Assembly (NCBI GenBank): GCA_900128395.1
Contig: LT649470.1
Location: 1-24,102 of the forward strand
Source: Stramenopiles sp. TOSAG23-2
Taxonomy: Eukaryota; Sar
Length of the DNA stretch: 24,102 nucleotides
Direction of reading: 5' to 3'
The notes beneath the pieces were generated by a model. The model was not told where the DNA came from. It worked only from the letters and a program-made list of their open reading frames with translations, and searched no databases. A program made the translations under genes and the position numbers. Each line of letters starts with the position of its first letter. Positions within the stretch are counted from its first letter, which is position 1. This document shows, in pieces, positions 44-24,102 of the stretch.

Positions 44-3031
44 TTACGGATGATTGTGTCCATGATCGTGTGTACATGTTGTTGAATTGCAATCGTCATC
101 TTTATTGATTGGCCAATCTGCATTTTCTTCAGCAAATGGATCCTTTAAACAGCACCATGCATCTTTGCTACCATCTTTAAACTCTTCATCAGTTAATACA
201 CATTTATTTAGAGTAGCTTCAATTTTTGGTATATCCATTTTTTGACCAATGAAAACCAACTCCTGTTGGCGATCACCGAACTTTTCATCCCAAAGAGGAG
301 CAATTGCTTCCTTCAAACCTTCAGGCCAGTCCTCTTCAGAGATCTTTGCCCACCATACTGGACCTGGAATGAGCGATGTTGTCTGTCCTGCAAGCGCAAA
401 AACAGCTTGAATATCGTATTGCGTCGCCAACCATGCAAAACCTTTCGCTCGCAACAACGTATCAAATGGTGCTTCTTTTCTACACATCATATCAAATGCC
501 TTTTGTAACCTTTCAGGATGCATTGGTCTTCTTGATCGAAATGTAAAGGAATGAATTCCATATTCAATTGTTTCTGGAACATGTTCTCCAATGCGGGCTT
601 CTTTCAGCCATTCGTCGTGTTTCTCTGCTTCTATCATAGAAAATCGCTTGGTACCTAGAATTTTAGTTGGGTCTACCACACCATGTGTTGATTCAATTAT
701 TTCAGCATCTGGATTAAATTTCCGCAATAACATTTTCACTGTACCCTTTTCTTTTTCATCAATAAGATCGCATTTATTTAATATAATTATATTCGCAAAT
801 TCCACTTGATCACATAATAAATGTGCAATCGTTCGTTGATCCTCCGGATCAGCATGCCACCCTCTGTTTCTCAATGATTCCAACGTTTGGAGCTCACGCA
901 TGAATGAAGCCCCATCTACTACAGTTACTAATGTATCCAGAGCAGCAACATCTGATAATGCAACTCCAGTATCATCTTTGAAAGTAAATGTTTCTGCAAC
1001 TGGCAATGGTTCAGAAATGCCACTACTTTCAATGATTAAATAATCAAAACGCTGTTCCGCAGCAAGTGTAGCAACTTCATTTAGCAAATCTTCTCTAAGC
1101 GTGCAACATATGCAACCGTTAGATAATTCAATCATACGTTCTTCTGTTTGCTTTAAAGAGCCTCCATTTTGCAACAGTGCAGCATCGACATTTACAGCAC
1201 CCATATCATTCACAATTAATGCAACGCGTAATCCTTGTCGATTTTGCAATACATGTGTCAACAAAGTAGTTTTACCAGCGCCAAGAAAACCAGAAAGTAC
1301 TGTTACAGGTAACATTTTATGTTCTTCTAACTTTCCATTCTTTGGTTGATTTCGTATTTTCCGTACTAATGCTAACATATCTTTTTTATTTATTTTTGTA
1401 GTGGTGGTGGTTGTGGTGGTGGTGGTGGTGCTAGTAGTTGTTGCCGAAATTGATAACGATGTATCATTCATGCCATCCTTGCCATTTTCAATAAATTCCA
1501 TTGGCATTGCTTCATCAAGTGTACCAGCACTCTCTTGACCAAATACACCGCCCCATTTAATTGGTAGGGCATTTGCAATTGCAGCGCCTTTTAAAGCATA
1601 TGCCATTGTTTGCAAGGCTATGATGGTACCTTGGTCATTTCCCAAAGCAGTGATTGCACGAGGAAGAGTATACCAATCATATATATCATCTTCATCTTCC
1701 ATATCTGCCTCTTCAAGTGGTCCATCAGGTGGAGGGTGAACAGCATAAAGTGCATACAATGTTACAATGATTGGCTTTCCAGATGGCAAATATATATTTA
1801 CTGGTACAATATTTGTCATTGGTATAACTTCCGTTTTACCGTCAATCTCGCAAAATTGGCTAACGCTACGAATGGCACAATCAAATGCTGACTCATTATC
1901 ATTGCAAGCTACAGATGGTATACGCAGTCCTTTCCATTTTTTTTTCAGTGATCTACAGAGAACACAACGATTTCCACGAAGAATCAAACCACCTATTTCT
2001 CGTGCACAGTCATCAATATTAATTTTCATTGCACTGTCATTATCACTAGTTGCTCCTCCTTTTTCCTCTTCTTCCTTTTCTAGCATTTGCAACTTTGATG
2101 TTACATCAATACTTATTTGTTTTCCCATTTTTGTATTCGGATCCAATATAATTTGTACTTCTGAGAAAAATATCATTTGTCCTAACTCATCGTATTTTTC
2201 CATATCATACTCTGGTACTACTATAATATCAGTTTTCTTCATGTCAGCATCTTTATTCTTCATTTCAACATCTTTTTTTTTATTATTTGCAACATTATCT
2301 TGCGGTATATCAATTTGAAAAATTGTTGGAATCAATAATTTATTATTTTCGATATTAAAATGACATGTCGAATTTCCAATTGGGCAATAATGTCGTAAAA
2401 TAGAATCACGTCGATTTTGTTCTTTACCATTTGAATATACTACGTCTAAACGAACATCTTTTAATTTTGATGCATATTGGTTGTTTAATTGATTACTAAT
2501 AAACTTTGAGGATAATTTTGGATGCAACATAATCAATCGTTTGATATTTTCTGAAGCAAATGCCCGAGATGCAACTGGGCTCAAAAGCTTTATTGCGAAT
2601 TGGCAACATACGCCACGTGCAACAATAGTAGCATTTCGAAGATGGAGTCGCTCTAAAAAGCGAACTATAGGTTTTTCCATCCGTTTTCCAAATTGTTGTA
2701 AAAGTGCTTCTTCGTTGGCAATGTCACGATCTAACTCATCTTTTTCGCGCAAGATTAATAAATCTGCAATGTCAATAACAAGAATAGTTGAAAATTCTTC
2801 AACTTTATCACTTTTTGTAAATAATATTTCTTGTGTCACACCCATTAAATTTTTCATAGGGTTACTACTTTTATCGGTTGCATGGCTTTGATGTTCCAAA
2901 ATGACCATGGCATCATATAAATAATCATTTTCTGGTGGTTTGTACGGGGAATATCCTTTGGTAGCAGCCCATGCCCGTACACATTGCCAATCTTGTTTTT
3001 CCTCTGATGATATCCGTGCTTTTCTTGACAT
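44..3031 (-). CDS. CobW/COG0523-family GTPase metallochaperone with N-terminal degenerate Nudix domain
   Basis: 995 residues, much longer than the 300-450 usual for COG0523 GTPases. The C-terminal half is a clear CobW domain. It has Walker A GFLGAGKTT at 581-589, the metal-binding CxCC signature CICC at 640-643, an ESSG segment at 668-671, the guanine-specificity motif NKCD at 752-755 and a CobW C-terminal domain at about 826-942. It ends in a His-rich tail (HDHGHNHP) preceded by two Cys, a typical metal-binding end. Family members bind Zn or other metals and use GTP hydrolysis to load client proteins; the client here is unknown. Residues about 337-480 resemble a Nudix fold, but the catalytic Glu residues of the Nudix box are not conserved. 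Residues about 80-215 weakly suggest an alpha/beta-hydrolase-like fold. A Thr run (531-545) links the two halves. The start is the first ATG, followed by MSRKAR. The CobW call is firm; the N-terminal assignments are inference. Confidence 0.92.
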   Translation of the reverse strand: MSRKARISSEEKQDWQCVRAWAATKGYSPYKPPENDYLYDAMVILEHQSHATDKSSNPMKNLMGVTQEILFTKSDKVEEFSTILVIDIADLLILREKDELDRDIANEEALLQQFGKRMEKPIVRFLERLHLRNATIVARGVCCQFAIKLLSPVASRAFASENIKRLIMLHPKLSSKFISNQLNNQYASKLKDVRLDVVYSNGKEQNRRDSILRHYCPIGNSTCHFNIENNKLLIPTIFQIDIPQDNVANNKKKDVEMKNKDADMKKTDIIVVPEYDMEKYDELGQMIFFSEVQIILDPNTKMGKQISIDVTSKLQMLEKEEEEKGGATSDNDSAMKINIDDCAREIGGLILRGNRCVLCRSLKKKWKGLRIPSVACNDNESAFDCAIRSVSQFCEIDGKTEVIPMTNIVPVNIYLPSGKPIIVTLYALYAVHPPPDGPLEEADMEDEDDIYDWYTLPRAITALGNDQGTIIALQTMAYALKGAAIANALPIKWGGVFGQESAGTLDEAMPMEFIENGKDGMNDTSLSISATTTSTTTTTTTTTTTKINKKDMLALVRKIRNQPKNGKLEEHKMLPVTVLSGFLGAGKTTLLTHVLQNRQGLRVALIVNDMGAVNVDAALLQNGGSLKQTEERMIELSNGCICCTLREDLLNEVATLAAEQRFDYLIIESSGISEPLPVAETFTFKDDTGVALSDVAALDTLVTVVDGASFMRELQTLESLRNRGWHADPEDQRTIAHLLCDQVEFANIIILNKCDLIDEKEKGTVKMLLRKFNPDAEIIESTHGVVDPTKILGTKRFSMIEAEKHDEWLKEARIGEHVPETIEYGIHSFTFRSRRPMHPERLQKAFDMMCRKEAPFDTLLRAKGFAWLATQYDIQAVFALAGQTTSLIPGPVWWAKISEEDWPEGLKEAIAPLWDEKFGDRQQELVFIGQKMDIPKIEATLNKCVLTDEEFKDGSKDAWCCLKDPFAEENADWPINKDDDCNSTTCTHDHGHNHP

Positions 3032-3477
3032 ATTGTTTTTGCTGTTGTCTTTTACTGCTGTAGTTGTAAATTATATATATGCAAGAATTGTATCTATTTA
3101 CTAATATGATATAGTATACATATATATTTGTAAGAATTAATATTAATACTAGTACTATATATGTACATATACCATTTACTCATACATCGAACTGTATTTG
3201 TACGTGGTATATTATAAACAAATAAATTGTGCATGATGATATAATATTTAGTAGTGTATCAAAGTAGAAGAGACGCGTAAATACAACAGTACCGACCGTC
3301 TAATATTAATAGTCAGTAATAGTGCCAGTTGCCAGTCGTTAATAATCCAAAAAAATATTGGATTTTCGCTATCAATTTAAGTACAAAAAAATTCTATAAA
3401 AAAGTGTAGTCTAAAAAATACACCTCCTGATCTCCTGATGATAAAATACCTACCCAGGTAATGAAGAAGAAATAAAT
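3032..3477. other. AT-rich intergenic, upstream of the CobW gene
   Basis: This is the 5' flank of the minus-strand CobW gene. It is AT-rich with several TATATA-type stretches (about 3070-3180) and no plausible coding frame. I see no RNA gene or clear regulatory motif. It should contain the promoter of the CobW gene, but nothing pinpoints it. Confidence 0.5.
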
Positions 3478-3773
3478 TACAAATAGTTTGCGATCAACAT
3501 GGCCCACTTGGAAAAACACGACGCCCACTCCCCCCCCCCCCCCCCCCACCAAAAATACCTTGAAAACGTGAAAAAAAGTGAAAAAACAACAAAATCTGCA
3601 ATTTTCTTAGTAATCTATTATATGTACATATTGCAGATTTTCATAAAAATTGCAGATTTTGTTGTTTTTTTCACTTTTTTCACGTTTTCAAGGTATTTTT
3701 GGCGGGGGGGGGGGAGAGGGGAGAGAGCGTCGTGTTTTTCCAAGTGGGCCATGTTGATCGCAAACTATTTGTA
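3478..3773. repeat. Large inverted repeat (128-bp arms, 40-bp loop) with homopolymer C/G core
   Basis: Positions 3478-3605 and 3646-3773 are near-perfect reverse complements. Outer ends read TACAAATAGTTTGCG and CGCAAACTATTTGTA. Inner ends read AAAATCTGCAATTTT and AAAATTGCAGATTTT. The main divergence is in the homopolymer core: the left arm has a run of about 17 C, while the right arm has 11 G followed by AGAGGGGAGAGAG. The 40-bp loop repeats part of the inner arm (TTGCAGATTTT at 3631 and 3650). The structure resembles a foldback or MITE-like element, but I see no target-site duplication or transposase. Translatable frames here read through the repeat and are not genes. Confidence 0.85.
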
Positions 3774-3990
3774 GTACAGTTGCATTATAGTACTGTATTC
3801 TATTAATACATACTTTTCTATTATTTGTTGTTTTTTTCACTTTTTTCACGTTTTCAAGGTATTTTTGGCGGGGGGGGGGGAGAGGGGAGAGAGCGTCGTG
3901 TTTTTCCAAGTGGGCCATGTTGATCGCAAACTATTTGTAGTACAGTTGCATTATAGTACTGTATTCTATTAATACATACTTTTCTATTAT
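3658..3990. repeat. 166-bp tandem duplication of the right arm of the inverted repeat
   Basis: Two head-to-tail copies (3658-3823 and 3824-3989) are essentially identical, including the 11-G run. Each contains the right arm of the inverted repeat plus about 50 bp of flank ending in TACTTTTCTATTAT. The region therefore holds three copies of the arm sequence, one inverted and two direct. Near-identity suggests a recent duplication. Confidence 0.9.
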
Positions 3991-4976
3991 ATATTTCAGA
4001 AAAGGATCACATGCTCAATAAATATCCAGTTTGGTTGTTTGTAAATGTGTTCATGGTGATGGAGTTGTGAAAAGAACCTCAAAATAGTGGGGTTCCAATA
4101 AGTATAGATTTAGTATACCATAAATATATATTTGATAGGCCGATCTTGACAGATCTTTTGATAATACATAAACTTTTTGTTGCAAGTGCTGTATCTATGC
4201 TAATTATTATTATAGACACAGCACTAATTCAAAAAAACTTCATAGGGACCATTTTCACGACAATATCAATTAACAAAAAATCTCCATACTTAAGTTTTAA
4301 GTACTCTAACAAAAATATGTAAATTAGACTACGAAATTTATACTACATTTCTATAACACCTCAAACACAAATATTTTTGCCAATTTTATTTTCATTTTTA
4401 AAAGTTCCGCCAAATAGGGTACAAAAATTGAGAAATTTAATGAGATATATAAAATTTGCATTATGTCTTCAAACATCATTTTCAACATTTTGAAGTCATA
4501 TAAACTACCACATCCATTCTTTATATATATAACTTATATCTCTAAACTCCAACCAAAATAAATATTACATTTACATGAAACGCTAGACCCAAAGTGAATT
4601 TTCACTAAAAAATGTACATTTTTGGACACTTTTATTAAGGTTTTACAGGCCTATTCTATAGTAAGGGTACTTTGACATGCAATTGAAACGTCGTTAGTAA
4701 AGTATGTTCCTGACACTCAGTTGTCATCAACTTACTCTTAGGTTTGGCTCGATACATGTATAAATGAGAATCGAACCTACTTTTGTAATAATATTTTGAT
4801 TGATGTGAGATATATTGTATCAACTATACCCCATTTTGCAATGTATTTGAACATGCTTGAAAAAGGCCTAGAATTCCAGATCGATTTTCATTCACAACAA
4901 TTTTAACAGGAGCTAGAAATCTTCATTTTGAACATGCAACATAAAAAATTTTTATAAAATCTCGTAGTTTCTATTT
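3991..4976. other. Non-coding AT-rich stretch
   Basis: About 1 kb with no convincing open frame, RNA gene or internal repeat. It contains one TTGATAGG motif (4132-4139). A GGTTCGATTC-like string on the minus strand near 4770-4785 does not fold as a tRNA T-arm. Confidence 0.5.
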
Positions 4977-5222
4977 CATAGGTGATATATTTAACTTTTC
5001 TCCGAGAGTTTACATGTATAATTATGTTTTTAAACAAAAGTGCTGCAATTTTTTTTTAAATCACACGTTAGCATGGAGTTAGTATTAGAGCACTTTTCCA
5101 TAGGTGATATATTTAACTTTTCTCCGAGAGTTTACATGTATAATTATGTTTTTAAACAAAAGTGCTGCAATTTTTTTTTAAATCACACGTTAGCATGGAG
5201 TTAGTATTAGAGCACTTTTCCA
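4977..5222. repeat. 122-bp tandem duplication
   Basis: Two head-to-tail copies (4977-5098 and 5099-5220) start CATAGGTGATATATTT and are almost identical. Each holds a 9-bp inverted repeat, AAAAGTGCT and AGCACTTTT, at 5036-5044/5089-5097 in copy 1 and 5158-5166/5211-5219 in copy 2. There is no coding content. Confidence 0.9.
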
Positions 5223-5350
5223 TGTAAATGGTGAAAATCATGAAAGGTTGAAAACTTTCATTAAAATAATTAATATTAGACTTTGAAACGTTGTATATCC
5301 GTTATTTATTACGTATACAATCTCTGTAGGTTGTGGTCTGGGGAGCTTAG

Positions 5351-5602
5351 AAGTAGAACCATGCTTACTAAAAATATCGTGCATTTTGATCATTTACGTT
5401 AGGGTTAGAGATGCTAGCACTACTCAGCATTGCGGGGTCATACCCGTACATAACGGGACCTCTCACTCTATTTTTCAAGTAGAACCATGCTTACTAAAAA
5501 TATCGTGCATTTTGATCATTTACGTTAGGGTTAGAGATGCTAGCACTGCTCAGCATTACGGGGTCATACCCGTACATGACGGGACCTCTCACTCTATTTT
5601 TC
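5351..5602. repeat. 126-bp tandem duplication with telomere-like and hairpin motifs
   Basis: Two head-to-tail copies (5351-5476 and 5477-5602) start AAGTAGAACCATGC and differ at a few positions. Each carries TTAGGGTTAGAG and a compact set of short inverted motifs around CCCGTACATAACGGG (copy 1) or CCCGTACATGACGGG (copy 2). The open frame that spans the region only reflects the duplication. Confidence 0.9.
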
Positions 5603-5868
5603 AGCACCAACATACACTCATACGAATGCCATTTCTACACTTTCCTATTATATACAAAGCTGAAACCAATACCTAAAAGTCGTATACTGATCACCTAAAC
5701 AATCCCCGACCGTTCCCCTGTCCATACATCACATATAAGTCGAGCTTGACATCGATATGTAATTTTCAAGATCGGGTTAGTTTAGGGTTAGAGACCAAAA
5801 AATCACCAAAATATTGAAAAATTATCACAAATATCATCAAAATACAATATGTCGATTTTTTCTATCTA
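5603..5868. other. Non-coding spacer between duplications
   Basis: AT-rich, without a gene. It contains a further TTTAGGGTTAGAG near 5776-5788, sharing the TAGGGTTAGAG core with the adjacent 126-bp repeat. Confidence 0.45.
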
Positions 5869-6130
5869 AATCTTCTACGAATGAATTCGTTTTAAGACAC
5901 ATCTCTTAACATACCCCTAAAGGAAAGAAGTACATGAATATTTTGATCTAATTATGTTTTAAATGAAACTGACAAGGTAAAGAAATTTTTTCAAAATGAA
6001 AATCTTCTACAAATTAATTCATTATAAGACACATCTCTCAACACTTGTCTAAAGGAAAGAAGTACATGAATATTTTGATCTAATTATGTTTTAAATGAAA
6101 CTGACAAGGTAACGAAATTTTTTCAAAATG
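5869..6130. repeat. 132-bp tandem duplication, moderately diverged
   Basis: Copy 1 (5869-6000) and copy 2 (6001-about 6130) share long identical blocks, such as AAGGAAAGAAGTACATGAAT and AAATGAAACTGACAAGG, with clear substitutions in their first 50 bp. A 6-bp palindrome in copy 1 (ACGAAT/ATTCGT) is lost in copy 2. The divergence shows this is an old genomic duplication rather than an assembly artefact. Confidence 0.85.
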
Positions 6131-6149
6131 ATGTATTTTTTTGAAATTA

Positions 6150-6777
6150 GTATGGACATAGGCTGGACTAAAAATGCAAAGTTTGAAAATTACAAAAGGT
6201 AGTTTTTTACATATACAGATACATAACTTTAGCAAAATAAGTATCCACGATCAATTTTGATATACTTGGTAATGAACATACAAGGTATATCAATATTATT
6301 GTATCAATTTCATATTTAAATAACCGTTAAAAGTTGAAAAAAACGCGTAACCCTATAGCTGTAACACTACTTGATAGGTGCTTTTCGCATGTAGTGTCAG
6401 CTCTGTCTTACACAATGTAGTACAAAAATACTATACTGAATTATTGATAGGTTTCAATATTCCAAAAACGATATTTACAATTTATGTAAAAAAGTGAATT
6501 TCCATCTAAAATATGATATTTTGTATGATTTCATGTTAAAAGTTGAAAAAAACGCGTAACCCTATAGCTGTAACACTACTTGATAGGTGCTTTTCGCATG
6601 TAGTGTCAGCTCTGTCTTACACAATGTAGTACAAAAATACTATACTGAATTATTGATAGGTTTCAATATTCCAAAAACGATATTTACAATTTATGTAAAA
6701 AATGACATTTCCATCTAAAATATGATATTTTGTATGATTTCATATTAATGGTATTTATATCCAGCCTATGTCCATAC
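6150..6777. mobile_element. Candidate TIR-bounded non-autonomous element (628 bp) with TA flanks
   Basis: GTATGGACATAGGCTGGA (6150-6167) recurs as its exact reverse complement at 6760-6777. TA dinucleotides sit immediately outside both ends (6148-6149 and 6778-6779). The inverted match extends outward through AAATTA and a T7/A7 run with one mismatch, giving about 32 bp. TA target sites and short TIRs are the hallmark of Tc1/mariner-type MITEs. The interior has no transposase frame and consists largely of two copies of a 209-bp repeat. It could instead be a chance or repeat-derived inverted match, so confidence is moderate. Confidence 0.5.
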
Positions 6778-6990
6778 TAATTTGAAAAAAACGCGTAACC
6801 CTATAGCTGTAACACTACTTGATAGGTGCTTTTCACTTGTAGTGTCGGCTCTGTCTAACACAATTTAGTACAAAAATAGTGATTGTTTTTTTGATAGGTT
6901 TCAATATTCCAAAAACGATATTTACAATTTATGTAAAAAATGACATTTCCATCCTAAAATATGATATTTTGTATAATTTTAAATTAATGG
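6330..6990. repeat. 209-bp repeat: two tandem copies plus a third diverged copy
   Basis: Copy 1 (about 6330-6538) and copy 2 (about 6539-6747) are nearly identical. A third, more diverged copy (about 6782-6990) follows after a roughly 30-bp insertion containing the right TIR. The shared core begins TTGAAAAAAACGCGTAACCC. Each copy contains a 12-bp hairpin (AGCTG-TA-ACACTAC paired with GTAGTGT-CAGCT or CGGCT) at 6357-6402, 6566-6611 and 6805-6850. No protein is encoded. Confidence 0.9.
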
Positions 6991-7112
6991 TATTTATATC
7001 TAATTTTAAGAAGATGATGAAATTGTTAAAATGTCGATGTAATTTTTACATGTTTTTTGTGTTTTTAAAAATGGATATTTTTTTAATTTAATGATTTCTA
7101 TGAATTTTATAC

Positions 7113-7403
7113 TTTGTTTTCGTCATTTCTGTAAATTAATAATTTATTTAAGTACAAATTTTAATGTAAAAATTCGATACCAGAAATTCTGCTATCCCTA
7201 ATTTCTGAAAACAAGAAATGTCAAAATTATTTTGCCAATTGATAGGAAAAATAGTATTTTGTTTTCGTCATTTCTGTAAATTAATAATTTATTTAAGTAC
7301 AAATTTTAATGTATAAATTTGATGCCTGAAATTCTGCTATCCCTAATTTCTGAAAACGTGAAATGTCAAAATTATTTTGCCAATTGATAGGAAAAATAGT
7401 ATA
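7113..7403. repeat. 145-bp tandem duplication
   Basis: Copies at 7113-7257 and 7258-7402 both begin TTTGTTTTCGTCATTTCTG and end with CAATTGATAGGAAAAATAGTAT. They differ at several sites. Copy 1 holds an 8-bp inverted repeat (CAGAAATT/AATTTCTG) that is broken by one change in copy 2. Confidence 0.88.
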
Positions 7404-12094: not shown

Positions 12095-14887
12095 TTACGA
12101 TAATAAAGATACACTATCAAAAAATGAAATTTGATTTGATTCTGATGATAAAGATTTATGTGTTATCGTAGACGATTCAATAACGTTAAACTGATTCAAA
12201 AACATATTATATCTTGCTACCATCGAGCTACTTGTTACAAAAGTATTTTCATTGGCAATTAATAAATAATTGCCATCATTAATATTATTAGTACCATCAT
12301 TAAATAAAATTTCATCATACATACAAGAAATAAAAATAAATCTTTTCTCAAGTCCTTTTACATTAACAACCGATTTATTATCAGGAATCCAAATATATTT
12401 ACTACCAAAACAGTCATCGGCATCGCCTTTTTCCCTACCTTTCGTATGATTTGTACCACTGCTGCTGCTGCTACTGCTACTACTACTGCTATTATTTTTA
12501 TTAATACCACTCATGAAAGATGGAATTATTATATCAATTGGTACCATCGATAAGTTAGTGATAGAAATATAACCAATCTTGCCACAGCATAACATTTCCA
12601 ATTTAGTAGTATCATTTAATATCCTCGAGTAAATTCGAGGTTGTTCCACGTTTGCATTAAATATATTACCTTGATGGGAAGTAATTCCACATTGTATTGT
12701 TTTAAATAACATATCACGAAATTTATTTTGAAAGGAACGTGAATCTCCTTCGGATAATATAATTTGTCTAGCAGATATTGGATTTGCACTTAATATTTTC
12801 CAGATGTAATCAATTTGTACACTACGATTATATCGTAAAAAATATATACGATATGTAGCATTGGTATCATCTAAAATTAATTCCACATGATCTTGATTTG
12901 TAATAGATGTATTGCTTTTGACGACAAGAACTTCTTCCTGTGTGTTTTTCGATCCATTACCATTACTAGGAACATGTTTTGTAATAACTATTGTTACATC
13001 ATTTTTAGAATTGTAAGAATAATCTTTTCTACCACGTGTATTTGGTAAAAACAAACATATTTGAGTCCATGTAACTTGATGAACCCTCATTTCAACAACA
13101 TTCGAATCAATAAAATTCATTCCTCTAGTATTATGCATATTTTGGATTTTAGAAGATTTAAAGGTTACGTTATACCAATTTTTATGTGCTTTAACAACAT
13201 CAACATTTGTAAAACGCCTCATAAAATCAGTATATGTAATCCAGAATGTGCCATCATTCTTATCAGTCATCTTCAAAATTTTTTTTAATGAATTTGTCCA
13301 CACGTCAGAACCGGATGAAAATGCCCCATGCCATTCTTTCTTCCCCCATGGATTCCTTATACGAAGTACTCTTAATGTACCTTCTAATGATAAATGGACA
13401 TTTTGACTGTCTTTTAATTTTTGTTTATCATAACAATTCCCATTACTATGAAATTGATTAGTAACACTTGCACTTGTATTTCCAGCAGCAGATGTTGAAC
13501 TTTTTTTCTTTGAAGAAGAAAAGAACTCTTTAATGGATTGTTGTCTACCAAGCTTCACATCTTTAATTTCTTTTACTTCCAATATAGAATATGCATGTAA
13601 ACCAACGATACCTTCACCAGTTGTTAACGTGCCGGCTCCCATTGGAAAATTACAGCTTGCATATGACAATAATTTACCCCATGCAATATCTGAATCAAAA
13701 TGTTCGTCATTTAAACTTAATACTTCAGTTGGACAACCAGTTAATACACTGAATGCTTCCACTATTTCGCCACCTGAAATTGCCATATAATTGCTACATG
13801 CTTTTGCATATGCTTTTTCCAAAAAAGCAAGCCATAATGAATTTCCTCTTCCAGGCTTTGCAAACGCTAAATTTGATTTTGGTAATTTACGATATGATGA
13901 TGATGACGATGTAGAAGAAGACGAGGATGACGTACTACTGTTATTTCCGTTTGCTTTTTTATCATTATTTACACGTATGGGTAAAAAATTATCAATTGAA
14001 ATTGCTTCCCATTCACCATGTAAGCATAAATTAATTACAAGTTTCCCATCTTTTGGTATGCACATATTACGTTTAATATTATTATTATCATTGTTGTTGT
14101 TATTATTATTATTATCGGAAAGATACGTAGTATTGTTTAAATGATATGAAAATATTTGTTGCATTAAATCAGATCGTTCAGCAACAACTGCTGCTGCTGA
14201 AATGAACCAACAATCCCCAATTTTACCTTGTAATATGTCATTTGGAGCAAATAGTTTTTCATTTAATAAATGAGTTTGTGCAAGTTTATATTCAGGTGAA
14301 GAAAAGCGTTTCCAAGAGAGATCTTTCGCTTGTTTCGTATGTGGTTCACCGTTACACCATTGAAAAAATTTACAACGAAATTTGGCTGGTTTATTACAAC
14401 AATAAAAATATTTACCTTTGTTTTGTGTTTCTTTACGAACACGCTTTGCAGTAGCATGTTTACCACAATAACATTTCGGAGCTTCATCGCTATTATTATT
14501 ACTTTTTTTTTTCATACCAGAGCGTCCATCAATACTTCGTGAATTAGCTTGAAAATTGATGTCTACAAATAATTGATTTTTTGTATTTTGTTTTTCTACA
14601 TTTATATTGTCCGAAAGTTTTCCTTTTATCATGGAAACAGACGATGATATGATCCAGTTGTTCGTAGTATTATGAATGATTGTATTTGAATTATTTTCAT
14701 GATCACTATTACGTTTCTTGACTATTTCAGTTGTTGACGTTATTAATTTTCTTTTTTTATTTACAATGTGATTATTATTATTGTTATTGTTGTTCGTTGG
14801 GCGATGATGACCATTATTTACATGGTTTTGATTGGCATCATTGTTATCATTGTGGTTTGGGCTAGTCAAATCAATAATTCCACTCAT
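12095..14887 (-). CDS. Calpain-type cysteine protease with SIM-like motif, NLS, GRF zinc finger and PIP box
   Basis: 930 residues from the ATG at 14887 (MSGIIDLTSP); an upstream in-frame ATG at 14938 adds 17 unconvincing residues. In order: a SUMO-interacting-type motif IIDLTS (4-9), poly-Asn, a basic NLS-like patch (KKRK at 44-47, KKR at 57-59), a GRF-type zinc finger (about 139-178, with CYC at 139-141, YFYC at 160-163, C172 and FFQWC at 174-178), and a calpain protease core. The triad is present: Cys226 in GDCWF, His431 in GLHAYS and Asn512 in RIRNPWG. Between His and Asn an insertion of about 60 residues holds QQSIKEFF (449-456), a full PCNA-binding consensus. A beta-rich calpain domain III-like region follows, with Ser-rich tracts. 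No EF-hand domain is seen. Calpains cut proteins at limited sites; the add-on motifs point to the nucleus and replicating DNA. The protease call is firm; its site of action is inference. Confidence 0.93.
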   Translation of the reverse strand: MSGIIDLTSPNHNDNNDANQNHVNNGHHRPTNNNNNNNNHIVNKKRKLITSTTEIVKKRNSDHENNSNTIIHNTTNNWIISSSVSMIKGKLSDNINVEKQNTKNQLFVDINFQANSRSIDGRSGMKKKSNNNSDEAPKCYCGKHATAKRVRKETQNKGKYFYCCNKPAKFRCKFFQWCNGEPHTKQAKDLSWKRFSSPEYKLAQTHLLNEKLFAPNDILQGKIGDCWFISAAAVVAERSDLMQQIFSYHLNNTTYLSDNNNNNNNNDNNNIKRNMCIPKDGKLVINLCLHGEWEAISIDNFLPIRVNNDKKANGNNSSTSSSSSSTSSSSSYRKLPKSNLAFAKPGRGNSLWLAFLEKAYAKACSNYMAISGGEIVEAFSVLTGCPTEVLSLNDEHFDSDIAWGKLLSYASCNFPMGAGTLTTGEGIVGLHAYSILEVKEIKDVKLGRQQSIKEFFSSSKKKSSTSAAGNTSASVTNQFHSNGNCYDKQKLKDSQNVHLSLEGTLRVLRIRNPWGKKEWHGAFSSGSDVWTNSLKKILKMTDKNDGTFWITYTDFMRRFTNVDVVKAHKNWYNVTFKSSKIQNMHNTRGMNFIDSNVVEMRVHQVTWTQICLFLPNTRGRKDYSYNSKNDVTIVITKHVPSNGNGSKNTQEEVLVVKSNTSITNQDHVELILDDTNATYRIYFLRYNRSVQIDYIWKILSANPISARQIILSEGDSRSFQNKFRDMLFKTIQCGITSHQGNIFNANVEQPRIYSRILNDTTKLEMLCCGKIGYISITNLSMVPIDIIIPSFMSGINKNNSSSSSSSSSSSGTNHTKGREKGDADDCFGSKYIWIPDNKSVVNVKGLEKRFIFISCMYDEILFNDGTNNINDGNYLLIANENTFVTSSSMVARYNMFLNQFNVIESSTITHKSLSSESNQISFFDSVSLLS

Positions 14888-15580
14888 TTTGCATTTAATC
14901 GTTTTGATGTTTTTTTTTTTTTCATCTATATAGTACACATACGAAGCACATCTATCTCTCTGAAAAATGTTTTACTAGATAGATATTTTTGAATTACATC
15001 ATGCAATTCTATTTGGAACAACAACTAACCAAAAAGGTTAACCCAAAAAACTTTTAAGTATAAATTCTCATCTACATCATTTGATAGGGAAAATCGATAA
15101 ATTCTTTTTATCTATTTTCAATCTTCCATTTTCCATTTAATAACTTTTAAGTATAATTTCTCATCTACATCATTTGATAGGGGAAATCGAATCTGGGCTC
15201 TTTTTTTAGTTGCCGTGTTGCGTCAATCAAGCCCAGCAAGCCTGGCAAGGCACCAACATGAAGGAGCAAGAAGCCCGGCGGCGGCTAGAACCAATCAAAA
15301 GTGAAATATCTTTTGCTTTTTGTGGTGTACACATTCGCACATCTCACAGGTATAGAGCTACCATCATCACACCACCCTTTATTGTACTTATAGAATCTAT
15401 ATTACAATATATATATGTAAATGTAAGATTATTCTGTGGATACATACATTTATACATATATTTATCATATAATAACAACAACATAAAAAATTATATTAGT
15501 TATATATATATTAATTAGGAATAACTTGATATTTTGTAACAGCAACAAATTATAATATTAATTGACGACATCAATATATC
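14888..15580. promoter_or_regulatory. Divergent promoter region with 50-bp direct repeat and GC-rich block
   Basis: This 693-bp gap lies between the divergent calpain and SET genes. A 50-bp sequence ending CATTTGATAGGG(A/G)AAATCGA occurs twice (about 15049-15098 and 15142-15190, spacing 93 bp). A GC-rich block of about 90 bp follows at 15208-15298, in contrast with its surroundings. An 86-codon ATG frame starting at 15258 begins in this block but decays into Ile/Tyr/Asn-rich sequence and is not called as a gene. Confidence 0.5.
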
Positions 15581-16678
15581 ATGATGATGATGATGAAATT
15601 TATGTTCATATTTTTATTATGTTTTTTTATACATACGCAAACATCAAATGCAAATGTTGCATCCGTAGATGCTACACAGATGAATATGCCATATAATCCA
15701 CTTGTGGAACTAAGAAAGCAATATGTACCACCAGAAATTGCAATATTTGATTGGGTACGTTCCCACGGTGGTATTGTCGATGGTGTAGCGATATTTTCAC
15801 CAAAAAATAAACCAAGAGGTTTATATACGACAAAGCAATTTAAAAACGGTACAATGTTATTGTCAATACCAAACGAAGTGATGATACACAGAGGATTTGT
15901 TCTCAATGAGAAAAAAAATCCAGCATTTGTATCATATTACAGAGGACATAGCATTGATGGTAAAAATTACTTCATCGGACATGGTTTGCAAGCAATTAAA
16001 GATATGGATGCTGGTGAAGAAATATTTGATAACTACAGTCCACTAAGCGAAACTCACTTATGTACAATCAATATTCTTATAACATTTGGTTTTCTTGAGC
16101 CGGAACGTGGATACGATTGTTACGAGTTTACAGTAAATGCGACATTCGACGGAGAGTCAAAATTTGTTGCTGAAAAAATAGCATTATTTAACGCATTTGG
16201 TATACCAAGAACTTTATCGGTTACATTGCGTGGCTCGACATTGGATTCAATGCGCGAACGATTTCCAGAAGATTATTTAATATTTATGCGAATTATGTCA
16301 ATTTCCAATATTAATCAGTATAAGACTGGTATGATTGTAGCAAATGGAATTAAAGCTGGTACACATTCACGGAAAACAGTTTGGTCCCTCGATAACGAGC
16401 ATAATACGCTACGAAGTTTAAAAAAGCAAGCGAGTAACATACAGCTACATAATTTTGAAACGACTGTTGAGGAAGATTTGCAAATCTTGCAATTGTTGGA
16501 TAGTAAATTAAATGATAGTAGCATTACAAGTTACAAAACATTAGAATCTTATCGACAACAAAAACTAATTGTCGGATTAAGGCGCCGTGAGCATGAAGTA
16601 GTATCTACATTGATTGATTTTGCAGATGAAAAATGGATGAATTTATTAAATGCTAAAATATTAAACTCAGACATTTAA
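15581..16678 (+). CDS. Secreted SET-domain protein of the Rubisco LSMT/SETD3 type, SET core shortened
   Basis: 365 residues. A signal peptide (about residues 6-24, KFMFIFLLCFFIHTQTSNA) follows five Met encoded by ATG repeats. The front of a SET domain is clear: FDWVRSHGGIVDGV (56-69), RGLYTT (79-84) and LLSIPNEV (93-100). So is the back: HGLQAIKDMDAGEEIFDNYS (134-153), then LITFGFLE. Family members carry a long I-SET insert and an NHxxxPN-like motif between these blocks; here only about 35 residues separate them and that motif is absent. The C-terminal half resembles the helical substrate-binding domain of Rubisco-methyltransferase-like proteins. Intact members methylate Lys or His with S-adenosylmethionine. 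This one may have lost activity or evolved a minimal site. The signal peptide suggests the ER or a complex plastid. It diverges from the calpain and converges on the GH99 gene. Confidence 0.8.
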   Translation: MMMMMKFMFIFLLCFFIHTQTSNANVASVDATQMNMPYNPLVELRKQYVPPEIAIFDWVRSHGGIVDGVAIFSPKNKPRGLYTTKQFKNGTMLLSIPNEVMIHRGFVLNEKKNPAFVSYYRGHSIDGKNYFIGHGLQAIKDMDAGEEIFDNYSPLSETHLCTINILITFGFLEPERGYDCYEFTVNATFDGESKFVAEKIALFNAFGIPRTLSVTLRGSTLDSMRERFPEDYLIFMRIMSISNINQYKTGMIVANGIKAGTHSRKTVWSLDNEHNTLRSLKKQASNIQLHNFETTVEEDLQILQLLDSKLNDSSITSYKTLESYRQQKLIVGLRRREHEVVSTLIDFADEKWMNLLNAKILNSDI

Positions 16679-16985: not shown

Positions 16986-18323
16986 TCAATCATGGATCAA
17001 AGGTGACAAAATATCTTTCGTTAAATCTATATAATAATACTCTCCATTTACACCATAATCTTTATATTTTTCACCAGAATCTTTACGTTTCTCATTTGGA
17101 ATAGCTCTTTCAATGTTTGTCCCTTCGTGCCATTCATTAAATGATGTAATGGATATAAATCTTTTCGTATTACGCTTTGCATTACCTAATGCTTCTTTAT
17201 AATAATCGCCATTACGTCGCTCACGCGTATTCTGCCTATTCCAAGGACGTACTGGTACATCTTCATATCCAGGACCGACAGATGGAATATAAATTAAATG
17301 ATTTTGATCTGCAAAATTTCTCATTGAATGGAAATTCTGAAATGAGCTACCATATGTCATCCCATTTACCGCAAAATATGTATAAAATCCATCCCAATGT
17401 CCATTTTTAATATTTGTCTGATGTGTAGATTCTACAAGTAACCCAATCATGATACAATCATATTTAGTGCCACGAATAGTATTTTTTGATGTTTTTTTTA
17501 AAATCTTAGACCAGGCATTTGGACGAATTAAATACGAATCATAAATATACATCATTGGCAAACGGCTTTTCTCTTCCCGATAAAATGCAGGGTGTTCACC
17601 ATACGTATTGATAATATATTTCAAATCCTCTTTCACGCTTTTAGGCGACCGTTTTTTATATGGCTCAATATGAAATGTTATCTTTAACCCATATTGTGCC
17701 GCTTTATTTAATAATAACGGAATCAATTCATCTGAAGCCCTTCCTTCATTATCATGTTGATTTGGTGGATACCAGCTAACTACAAGTACACCGGCACCTG
17801 CGCGTTGTATTTGCTTCATATGATCTTCTACTACACTTGGATTATGGCTACTATAAAACCCCAGACTTGGATAATATATACTGCCAACATCGTTATTTTC
17901 TGGAACGTGCCTTTCTTGGGAGAAACGTTTGGCAGTTCGTTTGTTCCAATGTGCTAAACGAGGATGATTCCAATGCAGCCATCTATTATCGTATGTAGGA
18001 TTTCCGTACCAACCGTAGTAGAATATATGAATATCATATGAGCAGTTTAACATTATTTTACAATTTGGAAAATTAGGTGGGGAAGACGTTTGTGGAGAAG
18101 TTGCTTTTAAATTAATTGAAGACGAAAGATGATCATTGCCATCATTATTTACAAAATGATTTTTTTTATCCTTTATTATTTGTTGACTCTTTATTGTTTT
18201 TTGTAATTGTACTATTTTATGCGCATTTGTTGGGGTCAACTTATTCATTACGTATCTAGTAATCAATAACCATACCATTAAGATACTTGCAACAATGATG
18301 GTGACTTTATTATTACATTTCAT
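16986..18323 (-). CDS. GH99 endo-alpha-1,2-mannosidase (MANEA-like), Golgi type II membrane protein
   Basis: 445 residues with one N-terminal membrane anchor (about 7-25), a Ser/Pro/Asn-rich stem to about residue 90 and a full GH99 catalytic domain. Visible family blocks are FYYGWYGNP (101-109), GSIYYPSLGFYSS (147-159), VLVVSWYPP (179-187), ITFHIEPY (215-222), GFYTYFAVNG (312-321) and SFNEWHEGTNIE (394-405). The last contains the two catalytic-site Glu residues (397 and 400) of the family. GH99 enzymes cut glucosylated mannose from immature N-glycans in the Golgi, bypassing ER glucosidases, through an unusual epoxide-type mechanism. Length and topology match animal MANEA. An ATC/ATG repeat lies immediately before the start codon. 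Function is well supported; the exact substrate is assumed from the family. Confidence 0.93.
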   Translation of the reverse strand: MKCNNKVTIIVASILMVWLLITRYVMNKLTPTNAHKIVQLQKTIKSQQIIKDKKNHFVNNDGNDHLSSSINLKATSPQTSSPPNFPNCKIMLNCSYDIHIFYYGWYGNPTYDNRWLHWNHPRLAHWNKRTAKRFSQERHVPENNDVGSIYYPSLGFYSSHNPSVVEDHMKQIQRAGAGVLVVSWYPPNQHDNEGRASDELIPLLLNKAAQYGLKITFHIEPYKKRSPKSVKEDLKYIINTYGEHPAFYREEKSRLPMMYIYDSYLIRPNAWSKILKKTSKNTIRGTKYDCIMIGLLVESTHQTNIKNGHWDGFYTYFAVNGMTYGSSFQNFHSMRNFADQNHLIYIPSVGPGYEDVPVRPWNRQNTRERRNGDYYKEALGNAKRNTKRFISITSFNEWHEGTNIERAIPNEKRKDSGEKYKDYGVNGEYYYIDLTKDILSPLIHD

Positions 18324-18344
18324 GATGATGATGATGATGATGAT
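18322..18344. repeat. (ATG)n microsatellite at the GH99 start
   Basis: Seven ATG units on the plus strand read as CAT/ATC repeats on the coding strand, just upstream of and overlapping the GH99 start codon. Slippage here would change the leader length but not the protein. Confidence 0.7.
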
Positions 18345-18740
18345 TATGAAAGAAGGGATAATATATATGTAGACGTATATATATTCCTTTTTGAAATTGA
18401 AAAAAACATTTGCTATGTTTTTATATAATAATTTTTATTCTTCTTTATCTCGTGGCATCCGTGCGTCGTTTTTTTGCTTTTGTGTACTTTGTATTCTGGT
18501 ATTTATGCAGACTTCCTTAAAAAATGCACAGAGCACCAGACTTTTTTTTTTTATTACAGTATACTACAGCTACAGGTATAGTTGCTATAGTCTATAGTAG
18601 TAGTATAATATTTTAATTTTTAATACTGCCAGTGACAAAATATTGAAATTACAATAGTATAAACACCACGTGGTAGTGTGGCTTTATTATTAGATAGGGA
18701 AAATGTATTATGGTGTCCAGAGAAGTGTGTGCCTTTCCAG
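18345..18740. other. Divergent promoter region, GH99 side
   Basis: AT-rich with poly-T runs and imperfect palindromes of ACTATAG-type strings near 18555-18612. A TTAGATAGGGAAAAT string (about 18691-18705) resembles motifs seen upstream of other genes in the window. No gene is seen. Confidence 0.45.
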
Positions 18741-20803: not shown

Positions 20804-23710
20804 TTATAAATTATTCACTTTCTTTTGTAATATATTGTTTCTCTTTGTAAGGCTCTTAATCATGTCTCTATAGCCAAGCTCATGTTCAGCGTGAAATTCT
20901 TCATTAGTTTTAATAGTATTTCCTAAAAAGTAAGGCTTTGTAGCCAAAAAAACTACAAGTATGATCAAAAGTCTTACATCTATTATGTATCTAGTGATTA
21001 ACGATACGAAACTGAAATCACCATTATTTAGCGTTATAATTGGAGATAATCCATTGTAATATTCTTTAAATGGACCTTGGGACCATAGACAAGCACACAA
21101 GACTAAAACTTTATTATCAGGATGTTTCACATCATTTAAAAAGGTCAAAGGCATCAGTTTAAAGGCATCAATATATCTATATGAGTCACTTGTTGGATAT
21201 GGATTAATAAATAATATGGTTTCTGTCGAATTTATTGGATCCTTCTCCCACTCGATTGCTTTTAGTGGTGAGGAGAGCGCTTCTGCTAAAGTACTAGCAT
21301 TAGCTGGAAGAAGTTTTGTATGTTGATTTAAAAGTAAGTAACATTCATCCACTTCATAGTTATCATCTTTATATCGTTGTAGTTCATAGTCATCATGTTC
21401 TTTAAATTCTACTATACCGTAATTATCATATGTCGTATTTTTTGGTAACGACCTTGCTTGCAATTCACATTGTTTTGGAAATGTAGAATATGTTAACAAA
21501 AACGTACAATAGAAAACGTTGATAATGGATGACATCAAAAAGAACTTTAAGAAAAAGCTCAAGCTACCACCACCTCCACCACCACCTTTTGGCTTTGTAT
21601 TGCTCCAAAACATTACATTTTTCTCTGATTTAAAATTAATATAAAGTGTGATAAACATAATTACCCCAGCTAATGGATATAACGGCAACGAAATCAAGCA
21701 AATCTGGGTGTAATATAACAGTCCAATCATCTTCAGTTCAATATTAAAAGCCGTCTTTTTCATCGCTTTCTTATTTTTTTTACCCATCACCCAAGCAATT
21801 GCTGGAAACAATACTAGAAAAATTTTATGCATGACAAATTCTGTAACCATGATGTTAAAAATGCTATTACCAGCCATATCCATACGGCTGTTATAAACAG
21901 TTGGGTCAAACTTTTTTGCAAACGATTGACGTAAATGTCGCCATTTTAAATTTGGAAATAATTCAGTCCTGGATTGAAGAAAAAATGGATTTGATAAAAG
22001 CATATAAGATACTAACTGAATGACATTATTTATAGTTTTAGAAATAAAGATTCTAAAAACAATTTGTTCTACTTCATCCATTTTGTTATCCCACGCCTCC
22101 GTTTCCACTAATTTAATAATAATTTTTGGAATAATTGTATTTATCACAGATACAACGATAGGGACAACAGTGATTGGGATACTAGCTTGTTGTGCATCAG
22201 TAATTGTCAACTGACTGAATACTAAATCAGTGAAATACGCTTCATAAAATATTAATTGAAAAATACCATAGATCGCCAAACTTTGAAGAGCAAGATAGAT
22301 GGTAATCAAAAGCGCGCGTTTTGAATATAATTTTGCTTTGTCCTTGAAGCTACGGTTTTTTATAGTTTCAGCAATTTTTTCACTGATTAACATACCCGTG
22401 AACTGTTCAGCATTTCCCATCATCAAATCATTCATATCGTCCTCATCATGGAGGGTATGATCAAAACAATTCAATGATACAGTTGCGAACCGTTTTGCAT
22501 TTCCTTGCAAAGCATTTATCACTTTTGCTTTTCGGTCTTCAACAATCCATTTGTTTAAAGATATAAAAACAAGAACTATGTTTAACAATAGCAAAACAAG
22601 ACTATAATATAATGGCATATCACCCTGATAAAAACTGGAATAATAAAAAAGTTTTGCATACCAGGTACTGTCTGCAAAAACGTTTCCCGCTTCTAATTTC
22701 AATACAATTTGATAAACAATTAATGCTAAATATACTATCATAATGCTTATACTTGACTTAGTAATCCATTGATTAAAACGATAGTATGAAGCAACGGAAG
22801 AGCCAAATCTAGCTTCAACTTGGTCGACGTCTTTTTTTAAAGGATCATATTTAGTCATTATTTTTTTCACCCTATATCTGATTCTTTGTATAATATTCAT
22901 TTCTCCTTCTTGAGCATTATATAAAGCATCGTCATCGCCATCATCCCCACCTGCTTGAAGTAATTTTTTCCGCTCTTTCTCACGTCTCGCACGTTCTTCA
23001 TCCTCCTTAGCAGAGACGTCATTTACGTTAATTTTAGCTGCGAACATACCACCACCACCGGTAGCTGCCGAGTGATTGGCCGTATGCAAGTCATCTTGCG
23101 CTTGTGTCAATTGTTCGTTAAGTTTGTTATTTTTTTGCAGTTGCTTACGGTACATTTCACGTAACTTGTTCATGGTTTCTTCATATTCTTTGTTTTTTTT
23201 CATAGTTTTCAGTAATTTTCTATGAACCTGATCATCTGAAGCTAACGCTTGTGGCTTAACTAATGGCTTGCCATCCTTTGCAAATGATATGCCACTCATA
23301 TGCCCAACGCTATCTTTTTTCTCATCTCCATCATCATCATCATCTATTACGTATAAATCTGTACCACCTGAACCTTGGCGTCGTGCTGAGTGTTTTTTGG
23401 GCGCTCTATGACTATCAAGCCTTTCAATAGGATTATCCTCACCGCTAGCCCATTGCATTTGTTTATCTATAACTTTATCTAAATTCAACAGTTCACGCCT
23501 GTTTCCAGTAAACTCACTCTCTGTGACATTCTTGTCGCTTGCTTCAGTTTCATCCCATTGAAATTGAGATGCTACCCTATTTGAGTGCCCTTCCTCAATT
23601 TCCCACTGAAGGTTATGAGACTCATGGTGTTGAGAATCTTCACCAAAATTACTACCACTAGGTGCAACTTTACGAGAAGCCCCAAATAAGGACTTTCCGC
23701 CACCAAACAT
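20804..23710 (-). CDS. TMC (transmembrane channel-like) family membrane protein
   Basis: 968 residues. The N-terminal 270 are cytoplasmic, acidic and partly coiled coil (about 160-210), with three spaced QW motifs (35, 51, 86) and charged clusters. From about residue 285 a TMC-type start appears (RFGSSVASYYRFNQWI). Hydrophobic segments follow at about 319-338, 368-388, 467-490, 511-534, 618-642, 661-695, 720-741 and 905-925. A large loop (742-900) carries N-glycosylation sequons. The block GLLYYTQICLISLPLYPL (663-680) and a later QGPF (878-881) match the TMC-domain layout (the NQ..WLG..F.P block and CGPFR region). A Gly run (709-715) interrupts one loop. TMC proteins are multi-pass, ion-channel-related proteins; animal TMC1/2 act in mechanotransduction. 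A role in mechanosensing or ion transport here is inference. The start is the first ATG (MFGGGKS). Confidence 0.78.
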   Translation of the reverse strand: MFGGGKSLFGASRKVAPSGSNFGEDSQHHESHNLQWEIEEGHSNRVASQFQWDETEASDKNVTESEFTGNRRELLNLDKVIDKQMQWASGEDNPIERLDSHRAPKKHSARRQGSGGTDLYVIDDDDDGDEKKDSVGHMSGISFAKDGKPLVKPQALASDDQVHRKLLKTMKKNKEYEETMNKLREMYRKQLQKNNKLNEQLTQAQDDLHTANHSAATGGGGMFAAKINVNDVSAKEDEERARREKERKKLLQAGGDDGDDDALYNAQEGEMNIIQRIRYRVKKIMTKYDPLKKDVDQVEARFGSSVASYYRFNQWITKSSISIMIVYLALIVYQIVLKLEAGNVFADSTWYAKLFYYSSFYQGDMPLYYSLVLLLLNIVLVFISLNKWIVEDRKAKVINALQGNAKRFATVSLNCFDHTLHDEDDMNDLMMGNAEQFTGMLISEKIAETIKNRSFKDKAKLYSKRALLITIYLALQSLAIYGIFQLIFYEAYFTDLVFSQLTITDAQQASIPITVVPIVVSVINTIIPKIIIKLVETEAWDNKMDEVEQIVFRIFISKTINNVIQLVSYMLLSNPFFLQSRTELFPNLKWRHLRQSFAKKFDPTVYNSRMDMAGNSIFNIMVTEFVMHKIFLVLFPAIAWVMGKKNKKAMKKTAFNIELKMIGLLYYTQICLISLPLYPLAGVIMFITLYINFKSEKNVMFWSNTKPKGGGGGGGSLSFFLKFFLMSSIINVFYCTFLLTYSTFPKQCELQARSLPKNTTYDNYGIVEFKEHDDYELQRYKDDNYEVDECYLLLNQHTKLLPANASTLAEALSSPLKAIEWEKDPINSTETILFINPYPTSDSYRYIDAFKLMPLTFLNDVKHPDNKVLVLCACLWSQGPFKEYYNGLSPIITLNNGDFSFVSLITRYIIDVRLLIILVVFLATKPYFLGNTIKTNEEFHAEHELGYRDMIKSLTKRNNILQKKVNNL

Positions 23711-24102
23711 TTTTTTTGGTGTTTAATGTAGATAGAAATGCGTTCTACTTCGCAATGTTGTTTTGTTTGTTGTAAGTATGTTACGATGTATATAGTATAT
23801 TAAACTGAATAAATATATAATTTCTGTCAGTTTTTTTTTTTAGTCTTACACATAATAATATGATGTGCATTGTGTGTATTTATGATAATGATCATACTGG
23901 CAAAATCTTAAAATTGATATATTATAATAAGAATAGCATTGTATATTTATTAATACAAATAACTGAAATCGTTGTTTGTTGTTGAAAAAAAAAAGGCTGT
24001 GAAAATTTCTTTCAATCCATATAAAACCTTTAAAAGGTGTAGATTCCCAGAGATGCCACCGTTCACGTACGTTCAGTGAACGTCCAAAAGGCCAAAATGC
24101 AA
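23711..24102. other. 5' flank of the TMC gene
   Basis: AT-rich upstream region with a T run (23832-23842) and an A run (23984-23994). A 7-bp palindrome (ACGTTCA-G-TGAACGT, 24069-24083) lies at the window edge. No gene is seen. Confidence 0.45.

Follow-up and report, generated by a model that had tools for sequence, protein, structure and literature searches.

A calpain-fold protein with a GRF ribbon and a PIP box in Stramenopiles sp. TOSAG23-2, a candidate chromatin protease of algae and protists

Closest described systems

Calpains with a GRF zinc ribbon ahead of the calpain protease core (CysPc) have been listed since 2012, when Zf_GRF-CysPc proteins of SAR (stramenopiles, alveolates and Rhizaria), Hacrobia and Plantae were reported as one clade (PMC3563603), and a survey of 2015 lists UBA_4-zf_GRF-calpains (pC2) of Ostreococcus and Micromonas (PMC4631099). 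Here we describe a GRF-calpain encoded on contig LT649470.1 of Stramenopiles sp. TOSAG23-2 (assembly GCA_900128395.1). The whole stretch of DNA analysed, 24,102 nucleotides, is termed the window, and the GRF-calpain encoded in it the window protein. Besides core and ribbon, it carries a PIP box (PCNA-interacting peptide), a string resembling a SUMO-interacting motif (SIM) and basic patches. We lean towards regarding it as a nuclear calpain-fold cysteine endopeptidase, sister to CAPN15/SOL, which cleaves proteins on DNA that is being replicated or is damaged.

With the listed Zf_GRF-CysPc calpains the window protein shares the order of GRF ribbon and calpain core, preceded in some of them by UBA_4 (PMC3563603, PMC4631099). 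The accessible parts of both papers give domains only; PIP box, SIM, SOL-like C-terminus and function are not mentioned there. A literature search in open-licence papers found no description of a PIP box, a SIM or a function of GRF-calpains in the text available from them, and a hypothesis paper of 2026 which mentions GRF-calpains deals with cytokinesis, the terms "DNA repair" and "PCNA" being absent from its accessible text (PMC13413365). A previous sequence-only reading of the window, made without database searches, knew of no described calpain with this combination. This was too broad with regard to the GRF- and UBA_4-GRF-calpains listed in 2012 and 2015, but it stands for the PIP box, the SIM and the function, as far as the accessible parts of these two papers go.

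CAPN15/SOL, the nearest branch in our tree, is likewise led by zinc fingers and may have a similar C-terminal region; it differs by its NZF/RanBP fingers and by its known client, E-cadherin. This client is cut in a ubiquitination-dependent manner via the zinc-finger region, and rescue of knock-out cells by CAPN15 requires both ubiquitin binding and protease activity (PMC12805371, December 2025). FAM111A resembles the window protein as a protease with a PIP box and a single-stranded DNA-binding region that acts on obstacles at replication forks, a task that requires its interaction with PCNA as well as its DNA-binding and protease domains; it is, however, a trypsin-like serine protease of unrelated fold, and the available part of the paper makes no mention of a SIM (PMC7067828). 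SPRTN, Wss1 and GCNA likewise combine a protease with a reader of PCNA, ubiquitin or SUMO (PIP and UBZ in SPRTN, SIMs in Wss1 and GCNA), but they are zinc proteases of the SprT/WLM type, and the accessible text does not mention a GRF ribbon (PMC9240642). SPRTN is activated by ubiquitin on the crosslink (PMC12279946). GRF ribbons are shared with APE2 and NEIL3, which are a nuclease and a glycosylase and not proteases.

Architecture and family of the window protein

The gene comprises the following features (coordinates of the window):

12095..14887, minus strand: whole gene of the GRF-calpain, 930 amino acids in one uninterrupted frame (open reading frame and Pfam)
14861..14878, minus strand: SIM-like string IIDLTS, residues 4-9 (N-terminus MSGIIDLTS)
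14711..14758, minus strand: basic patches KKRK (residues 44-47) and KKR (57-59), resembling a bipartite nuclear localisation signal (sequence; enrichment in N-tails)
14522..14569, minus strand: calpain entry motif FVDINFQANSRSIDGR, residues 107-122 (alignment)
14351..14479, minus strand: GRF zinc ribbon, residues 137-179, with ligands C139, C141, C164 and C172 (Pfam, expectation value E 3e-9)
13559..14344, minus strand: calpain PC1 and first part of PC2, residues 182-443 (Pfam)
14210..14212, minus strand: catalytic Cys226 (alignment; invariant in 53/53)
13595..13597, minus strand: catalytic His431 (alignment)
13520..13543, minus strand: PIP box QQSIKEFF, residues 449-456, in the His-Asn insertion (pattern and relatives)
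13352..13354, minus strand: catalytic Asn512 (alignment)
13190..13384, minus strand: second part of PC2, residues 502-566 (structure and profile matches)
12098..13189, minus strand: C-terminal region, residues 567-930 (profile of the family, similar to that of CAPN15/SOL rows in this part)

IIDLTS, the KKRK/KKR patches, the Cys ligands of the GRF finger and QQSIKEFF, all named in the sequence-only reading, were found where it had located them, and its claim of an intact calpain triad was correct. Peptidase_C2 (E 6.1e-49) and zf-GRF exceed their Pfam cut-offs, and the solved structures matched are those of calpain-1 and its relatives as well as the GRF domain of NEIL3 (7jl5, E 3.5e-10). Cys226, His431 and Asn512 align with the triad of calpain-1 and do not vary among the 53 aligned GRF-calpains; by CysPc fold and Cys-His-Asn triad the window protein is a member of Peptidase C2. 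His stands in place of the Trp two residues past the catalytic Asn (W298 in calpain-1) in 18 of these 53 proteins, e.g., in rows P0024, P0034 and P0036 of our collection of relatives.

Classical and SOL rows of the alignment carry the motif F.D..FPP...S shortly upstream of the protease core and have no GRF ribbon. In the window protein the ribbon, with the ligand spacing C139-x-C141...C164...C172, is placed between an entry motif of this type and the core. The zinc-ligand pattern was found in 133 of 155 rows in its loose and in 105 in its tight form; 20 of the 22 rows missed by the loose form have four cysteines with a longer insert, and P0033 and P0162 are partial matches. The ribbon is predicted to bind zinc and DNA. 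Elsewhere in this genome, GRF matches belong to a helicase resembling ZGRF1, to a topoisomerase at two loci and to an APE2-type exo/endonuclease-phosphatase protein. On contig C29 the GRF/topoisomerase and Peptidase_C48 matches are each doubled at the same offset of 22,541 bases, and therefore a large duplication, either real or assembly-made, is present there.

Relatives were collected in three protein searches, the third of which drew on family members as query and was used with the best 120 of 264 matches; among these, 99 of the 106 new matches have GRF and both calpain parts. Relatives named by their source include Rhodosorus marinus, Cylindrotheca closterium, Fistulifera solaris, Chaetoceros tenuissimus, Epithemia clementina, Mayamaea pseudoterrestris, Amoebophrya, Symbiodinium pilosum and Polarella glacialis. 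The Hidden Markov Models which define GRF and core were built from a first alignment of 32 rows that left out P0019, P0021, P0028, P0031, P0033, P0035, P0037, P0039, P0040 and P0041-P0074, those among P0001-P0040 being long or without GRF annotation. For motif counts the first set was reduced at 75% identity from 53 to 41 GRF rows and from 77 to 62 non-GRF rows. The latter are an impure control, since they were drawn from rows including P0019, P0021 and P0035, three members of the GRF group of the tree without GRF match. A second set, taken from the third search and reduced from 105 to 68 rows, of which 60 with Met start and an N-tail of at least 60 residues entered the SIM count, served as a fresh test with patterns fixed beforehand; it may overlap the first set, as no de-duplication was made between them.

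The tree was computed by a quick method with midpoint rooting from 79 hand-chosen core rows (47 of the GRF group, 26 controls and 6 paralogues, the last with a long-branch warning). The GRF group forms one branch with an approximate likelihood ratio support (SH-aLRT) of 96 and adjoins the CAPN15/SOL rows together with one paralogue of this genome (support 89). By its GRF ribbon N-terminal to CysPc and its grouping with such proteins, the window protein belongs to the Zf_GRF-CysPc calpains. The C-terminal profile of the family matched the corresponding region of CAPN15/SOL with an hhalign probability of 96.8 (E 2.1e-10, 218 columns; a single pair without library background) and that of classical calpains with 88.9 over 93 columns. 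A calpain paralogue on L009 (613-3264, minus strand) stands beside CAPN15/SOL in the tree; its N-tail holds two repeats that by eye resemble ubiquitin-interacting motifs (UIM), and Pfam reported no UIM in it at E 0.01.

The stretch between catalytic His and Asn, which we take to be a hairpin in calpain structures, comprises 82 residues in the window protein vs. 25-31 in seven classical rows and 21 in four SOL rows, the latter having neither a GRF match nor a PIP box in this stretch. The PIP box lies towards the beginning of the additional residues; the segment is missing from the CAPN15/SOL and classical rows of the alignment. Both added modules, ribbon and PIP insertion, thus interrupt the calpain plan as read from the alignment and spare its catalytic residues. 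The median length of the loop in the first set is 35 in GRF rows vs. 6.5 in non-GRF rows. A strict PIP box occurs in the loop of 16 of the 41 non-redundant GRF-calpains (shuffled mean 0.03, maximum 1) and a relaxed one in 23 (1.16); the second set yielded 49/68 (0.06, maximum 2) and 59/68 (1.95), respectively. Among the 62 non-redundant non-GRF rows, the loop of only one contains a strict PIP box, and the PIP box as a general calpain feature was therefore rejected. This row, P0019, has a short N-terminus and lacks a match to GRF, yet the tree places it in the GRF group.

Because the pattern itself had selected the rows, independent evidence comes only from positions outside it. The Gly two residues before the PIP Gln is invariant in all 23 registered rows, and the 14 positions that follow the motif vary (2.7-3.4 bits). 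Shuffles ignore relatedness, and therefore the weight rests on the conservation of the PIP box within an otherwise freely varying loop. The enrichment figures show genuine, conserved motifs; the number of origins is not given by them. A chance motif was rejected on the grounds of shuffles and conservation. The window protein has the PIP-box motif (QxxPsixxFF) at a conserved place, in a segment that is probably exposed, and the PIP box is predicted to bind PCNA. A C-tail PIP box in rows without insertion PIP gained no support (1/19 vs. 0.32 expected). No hairpin PIP was found in the frames read at seven paralogous loci of this genome (a further match on C356 lies outside this count); the only similar string, QRYLDYYY in L011, is located upstream of the hairpin.

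SIM matches within the core, such as the LLDLTG of many relatives, belong to the calpain fold, and therefore only tails were counted. Within the first 70 residues, SIM-like strings occur in 15 of 41 GRF-calpains of the first set (shuffled mean 3.9, maximum 11), for which the pattern was written after inspection of some N-termini, and in 39 of 60 of the second (8.3 expected, maximum 17); the non-GRF count was 4/55 (2.7 expected). Fistulifera solaris P0158 and Cylindrotheca closterium P0025 both combine a SIM-like string at the N-terminus with a strict PIP box. The VIDLT-type SIM was found in five of 41 N-tails of GRF-calpains vs. 0.14 after shuffling (non-GRF: 0/55, 0.37) and in 12 of 41 C-tails vs. 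0.49 expected (non-GRF: 4/62 vs. 0.56). K[KR].[KR] patches are present in 14 of 41 N-tails (4.4 expected, maximum 12) and in 27 of 70 non-GRF ones (24.9). From these elements, SUMO binding by IIDLTS and nuclear localisation are predicted.

Some relatives carry putative ubiquitin readers. Pfam assigned UBA_4 to P0013 (E 1.6e-5) and P0154 (E 7.9e-9), with P0018 and P0020 below cut-off, and CUE to P0155 (E 1e-6); an NZF-like finger in P0008 (E 0.076) is below cut-off. RanBP fingers were absent from the window protein by Pfam, and P0008 alone among the ten relatives scanned has a weak one. Seven of 243 rows share a motif not met in 200 shuffles, which we assume to resemble the ubiquitin-binding motif (UBM) of translesion polymerases. 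Pfam found no UBM in the whole proteins P0009, P0010 and P0014, and of three N-terminal peptides P0010 alone gave a match, below cut-off (E 0.072). Because different readers sit N-terminal to the kept GRF-calpain core, we infer that reading SUMO or ubiquitin may be the constant need of this family.

Proposed function and its alternatives

On the level of sequence, the parts of the window protein, their positions, their conservation and its kinship are established. Many algal and protist relatives keep much of the set, which suggests a chromatin protease that has not been described so far; a chromatin protease tethered to PCNA or DNA is, taken generally, probable. In the proposed mechanism, the N-tail would bring the enzyme into the nucleus and the SIM would read SUMO or ubiquitin on the client, a task for which relatives may also or instead use a UBA, CUE, NZF-like or UBM-like element. 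The GRF ribbon would hold single-stranded or forked DNA beside PC1, and the PIP box in the PC2 insertion would dock the enzyme on PCNA. Contacts to clamp, DNA and modifier, perhaps more than Ca2+, would unite enzyme and client and may help to set the active site. FAM111A with its PCNA and DNA contacts, SPRTN with its activation by ubiquitin, and Wss1 and GCNA with their SIMs offer precedents. The clients are a guess; among several substrate classes, DNA-protein crosslinks or other fork-blocking proteins take the lead, but we name them as main clients only tentatively. With yet more reserve, the family might be regarded as an algal and protist cysteine-protease counterpart of SPRTN and FAM111A, which clears fork-blocking or crosslinked proteins and arose beside CAPN15-type ubiquitin-directed calpains by insertion of a DNA ribbon ahead of the core and a PCNA peptide between catalytic His and Asn, with clamp, DNA and SUMO/ubiquitin contacts replacing the Ca2+ switch.

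Several observations weigh against the proposal of a protease at replicating or damaged DNA. The sequence-only reading had proposed a cysteine protease for DNA-protein crosslinks or another SUMO- and PCNA-guided chromatin protease. Conservation in many relatives supports the combined architecture and its links to SUMO or ubiquitin, DNA and PCNA, with crosslink repair as the likeliest candidate among several substrate classes. The PIP box is missing from the insertion, strict or relaxed, in 22 of the 47 GRF-group rows of the tree, 17 of them in one alveolate-like subclade (Amoebophrya, Symbiodinium, Polarella) and five elsewhere. Orthologues without the elements, which that reading had named as evidence against itself, thus exist in part. 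Even the relaxed form is lacking in 18/41 rows of the first and 9/68 of the second set, and some rows have degenerate forms, e.g., QTKLPEVL in P0013. Several of the 17 subclade rows retain FF (or YF) at the same place without the Gln, so that a structural role is conceivable for part of the motif. As a pattern, the SIM is short and degenerate; the N-terminal string is absent from the first 70 residues in 26 of 41 first-set rows, and P0001, the closest relative, lacks a SIM at the N-terminus predicted for it. P0091, a partial record with the same SIM and 97% identity across 47% of the query, diverges just after His431 and therefore gives no confirmation of the PIP box for this species; it is perhaps a chimeric contig.

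The inventory of the genome adds to these objections. PCNA_N, PCNA_C and the RFC C-domain were not found in the assembly; as MCM gave six matches, this may be due to an incomplete assembly or to intron-split genes. No SUMO gene was recognised among the eight that were read of 14 ubiquitin-like matches, all ubiquitin-like sequences only; a Peptidase_C48 (Ulp1-type) match is present. The search for zf-MIZ SUMO ligases gave no match, and as the controls were silent too, it says nothing. Finally, a GCNA-like SprT protein and a WLM (Wss1-like) protein already exist in this genome, and the idea that the calpain substitutes for missing crosslink proteases was rejected for this reason. The GCNA-like protein is encoded on L020 (40-2457, plus strand); it has acidic tails that look SIM-like by eye, and its SprT zinc ribbon and HMG matches are below cut-off.

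A narrower alternative inside the general chromatin-protease reading is a SUMO- or ubiquitin-directed protease which, at PCNA, regulates replication or translesion factors by limited cleavage, serving polymerase switching or the removal of clamp clients and not crosslink repair. The UBM-like and UBA elements of relatives speak for it; such elements occur where lesions are signalled by ubiquitin. In the sister branch, CAPN15 also cleaves in a ubiquitin-directed manner outside the bulk degradation of ubiquitinated proteins (PMC12805371). Nothing separates this alternative from crosslink repair, but the GRF ribbon favours direct contact with DNA, and we consider it possible and on the whole unlikely.

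Less likely still is that the insertion motif is a structural or autoregulatory calpain segment and not a PCNA ligand, and that the enzyme is a nuclear protease guided by SUMO or ubiquitin and by nucleic acid to other places, e.g., to RNA or ribosome precursors. The FF kept without Gln in the alveolate-like subclade and the invariant Gly ahead of the PIP Gln are in line with this explanation. ZCCHC4 bears a GRF finger, too. It is an rRNA methyltransferase (PMC6834594) and thus an example of GRF fingers beyond DNA enzymes. Opposed to this are the full canonical PIP box, kept in 16/41 and 49/68 rows while the residues in between vary, and the CAPN15/SOL and classical rows, which manage without the segment.

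The Ca2+ sites bear on the last alternative. D106, E185, E302, D309, D331 and E333 are presumably the Ca2+ ligands of PC1 and PC2 in calpain-1, and all six are kept in the seven classical rows. At these sites the window protein has, in sequence order, D, S, E, S, D and T, so that with three of six ligands it departs from a classical Ca2+-dependent calpain; EF-hand families gave no Pfam match in it at E up to 1, and it does not qualify as a penta-EF-hand protein. GRF-calpains as a whole mostly keep D106 (40/53), E302 (53/53) and D331 (49/53), another point against the proposed chromatin protease, and mostly change E185 (Q in 33/53, S in 7/53), D309 (D in only 20/53) and E333 (T in 40/53); their Ca2+ control may be altered. 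That the protein is an ordinary Ca2+-activated cytosolic calpain, whose SIM, localisation signal and PIP box are chance look-alikes in a low-complexity protein with abundant runs of Asn and Ser, is very improbable: the motifs are short, the calpain fold is certain and three Ca2+ positions are mostly kept, but conservation, shuffle results and the three changed ligands argue against it.

Neighbouring genes and implications

Further genes were noted in the window. A CobW GTPase (CobW and CobW_C) is encoded at 44-3070 on the minus strand and has approx. 550 preceding residues without Pfam match at E 0.01. A Rubisco-LSMT-type protein follows at 15566-16678 on the plus strand, with a SET match below cut-off and a leader-like N-terminus by eye. 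A glycosyl hydrolase of family 99 (E 1.2e-123) is located at 16986-18434 on the minus strand, and a 972-amino-acid protein at 20804-23722 on the same strand has an anoctamin match just under the Pfam cut-off (26.8 vs. 28 bits). The region 3658-7399 comprises six tandem duplications side by side, whose units are 122 to 209 bases long; their first two copies are 92-100% alike, and a third copy in one family is 72% alike.

If the proposed chromatin protease is confirmed, calpains would gain a defined role at the replication fork, for which no description was found in the literature search. A cysteine protease would join SPRTN, Wss1, GCNA, FAM111A and Ddi1, the proteases considered for crosslink repair in a paper from whose accessible text the terms calpain and cysteine protease are absent (PMC9240642). 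Algae would then have a repair route beyond those known from work on animals and yeast, and the GRF-calpains, listed by their domains since 2012, would receive a function that can be tested.

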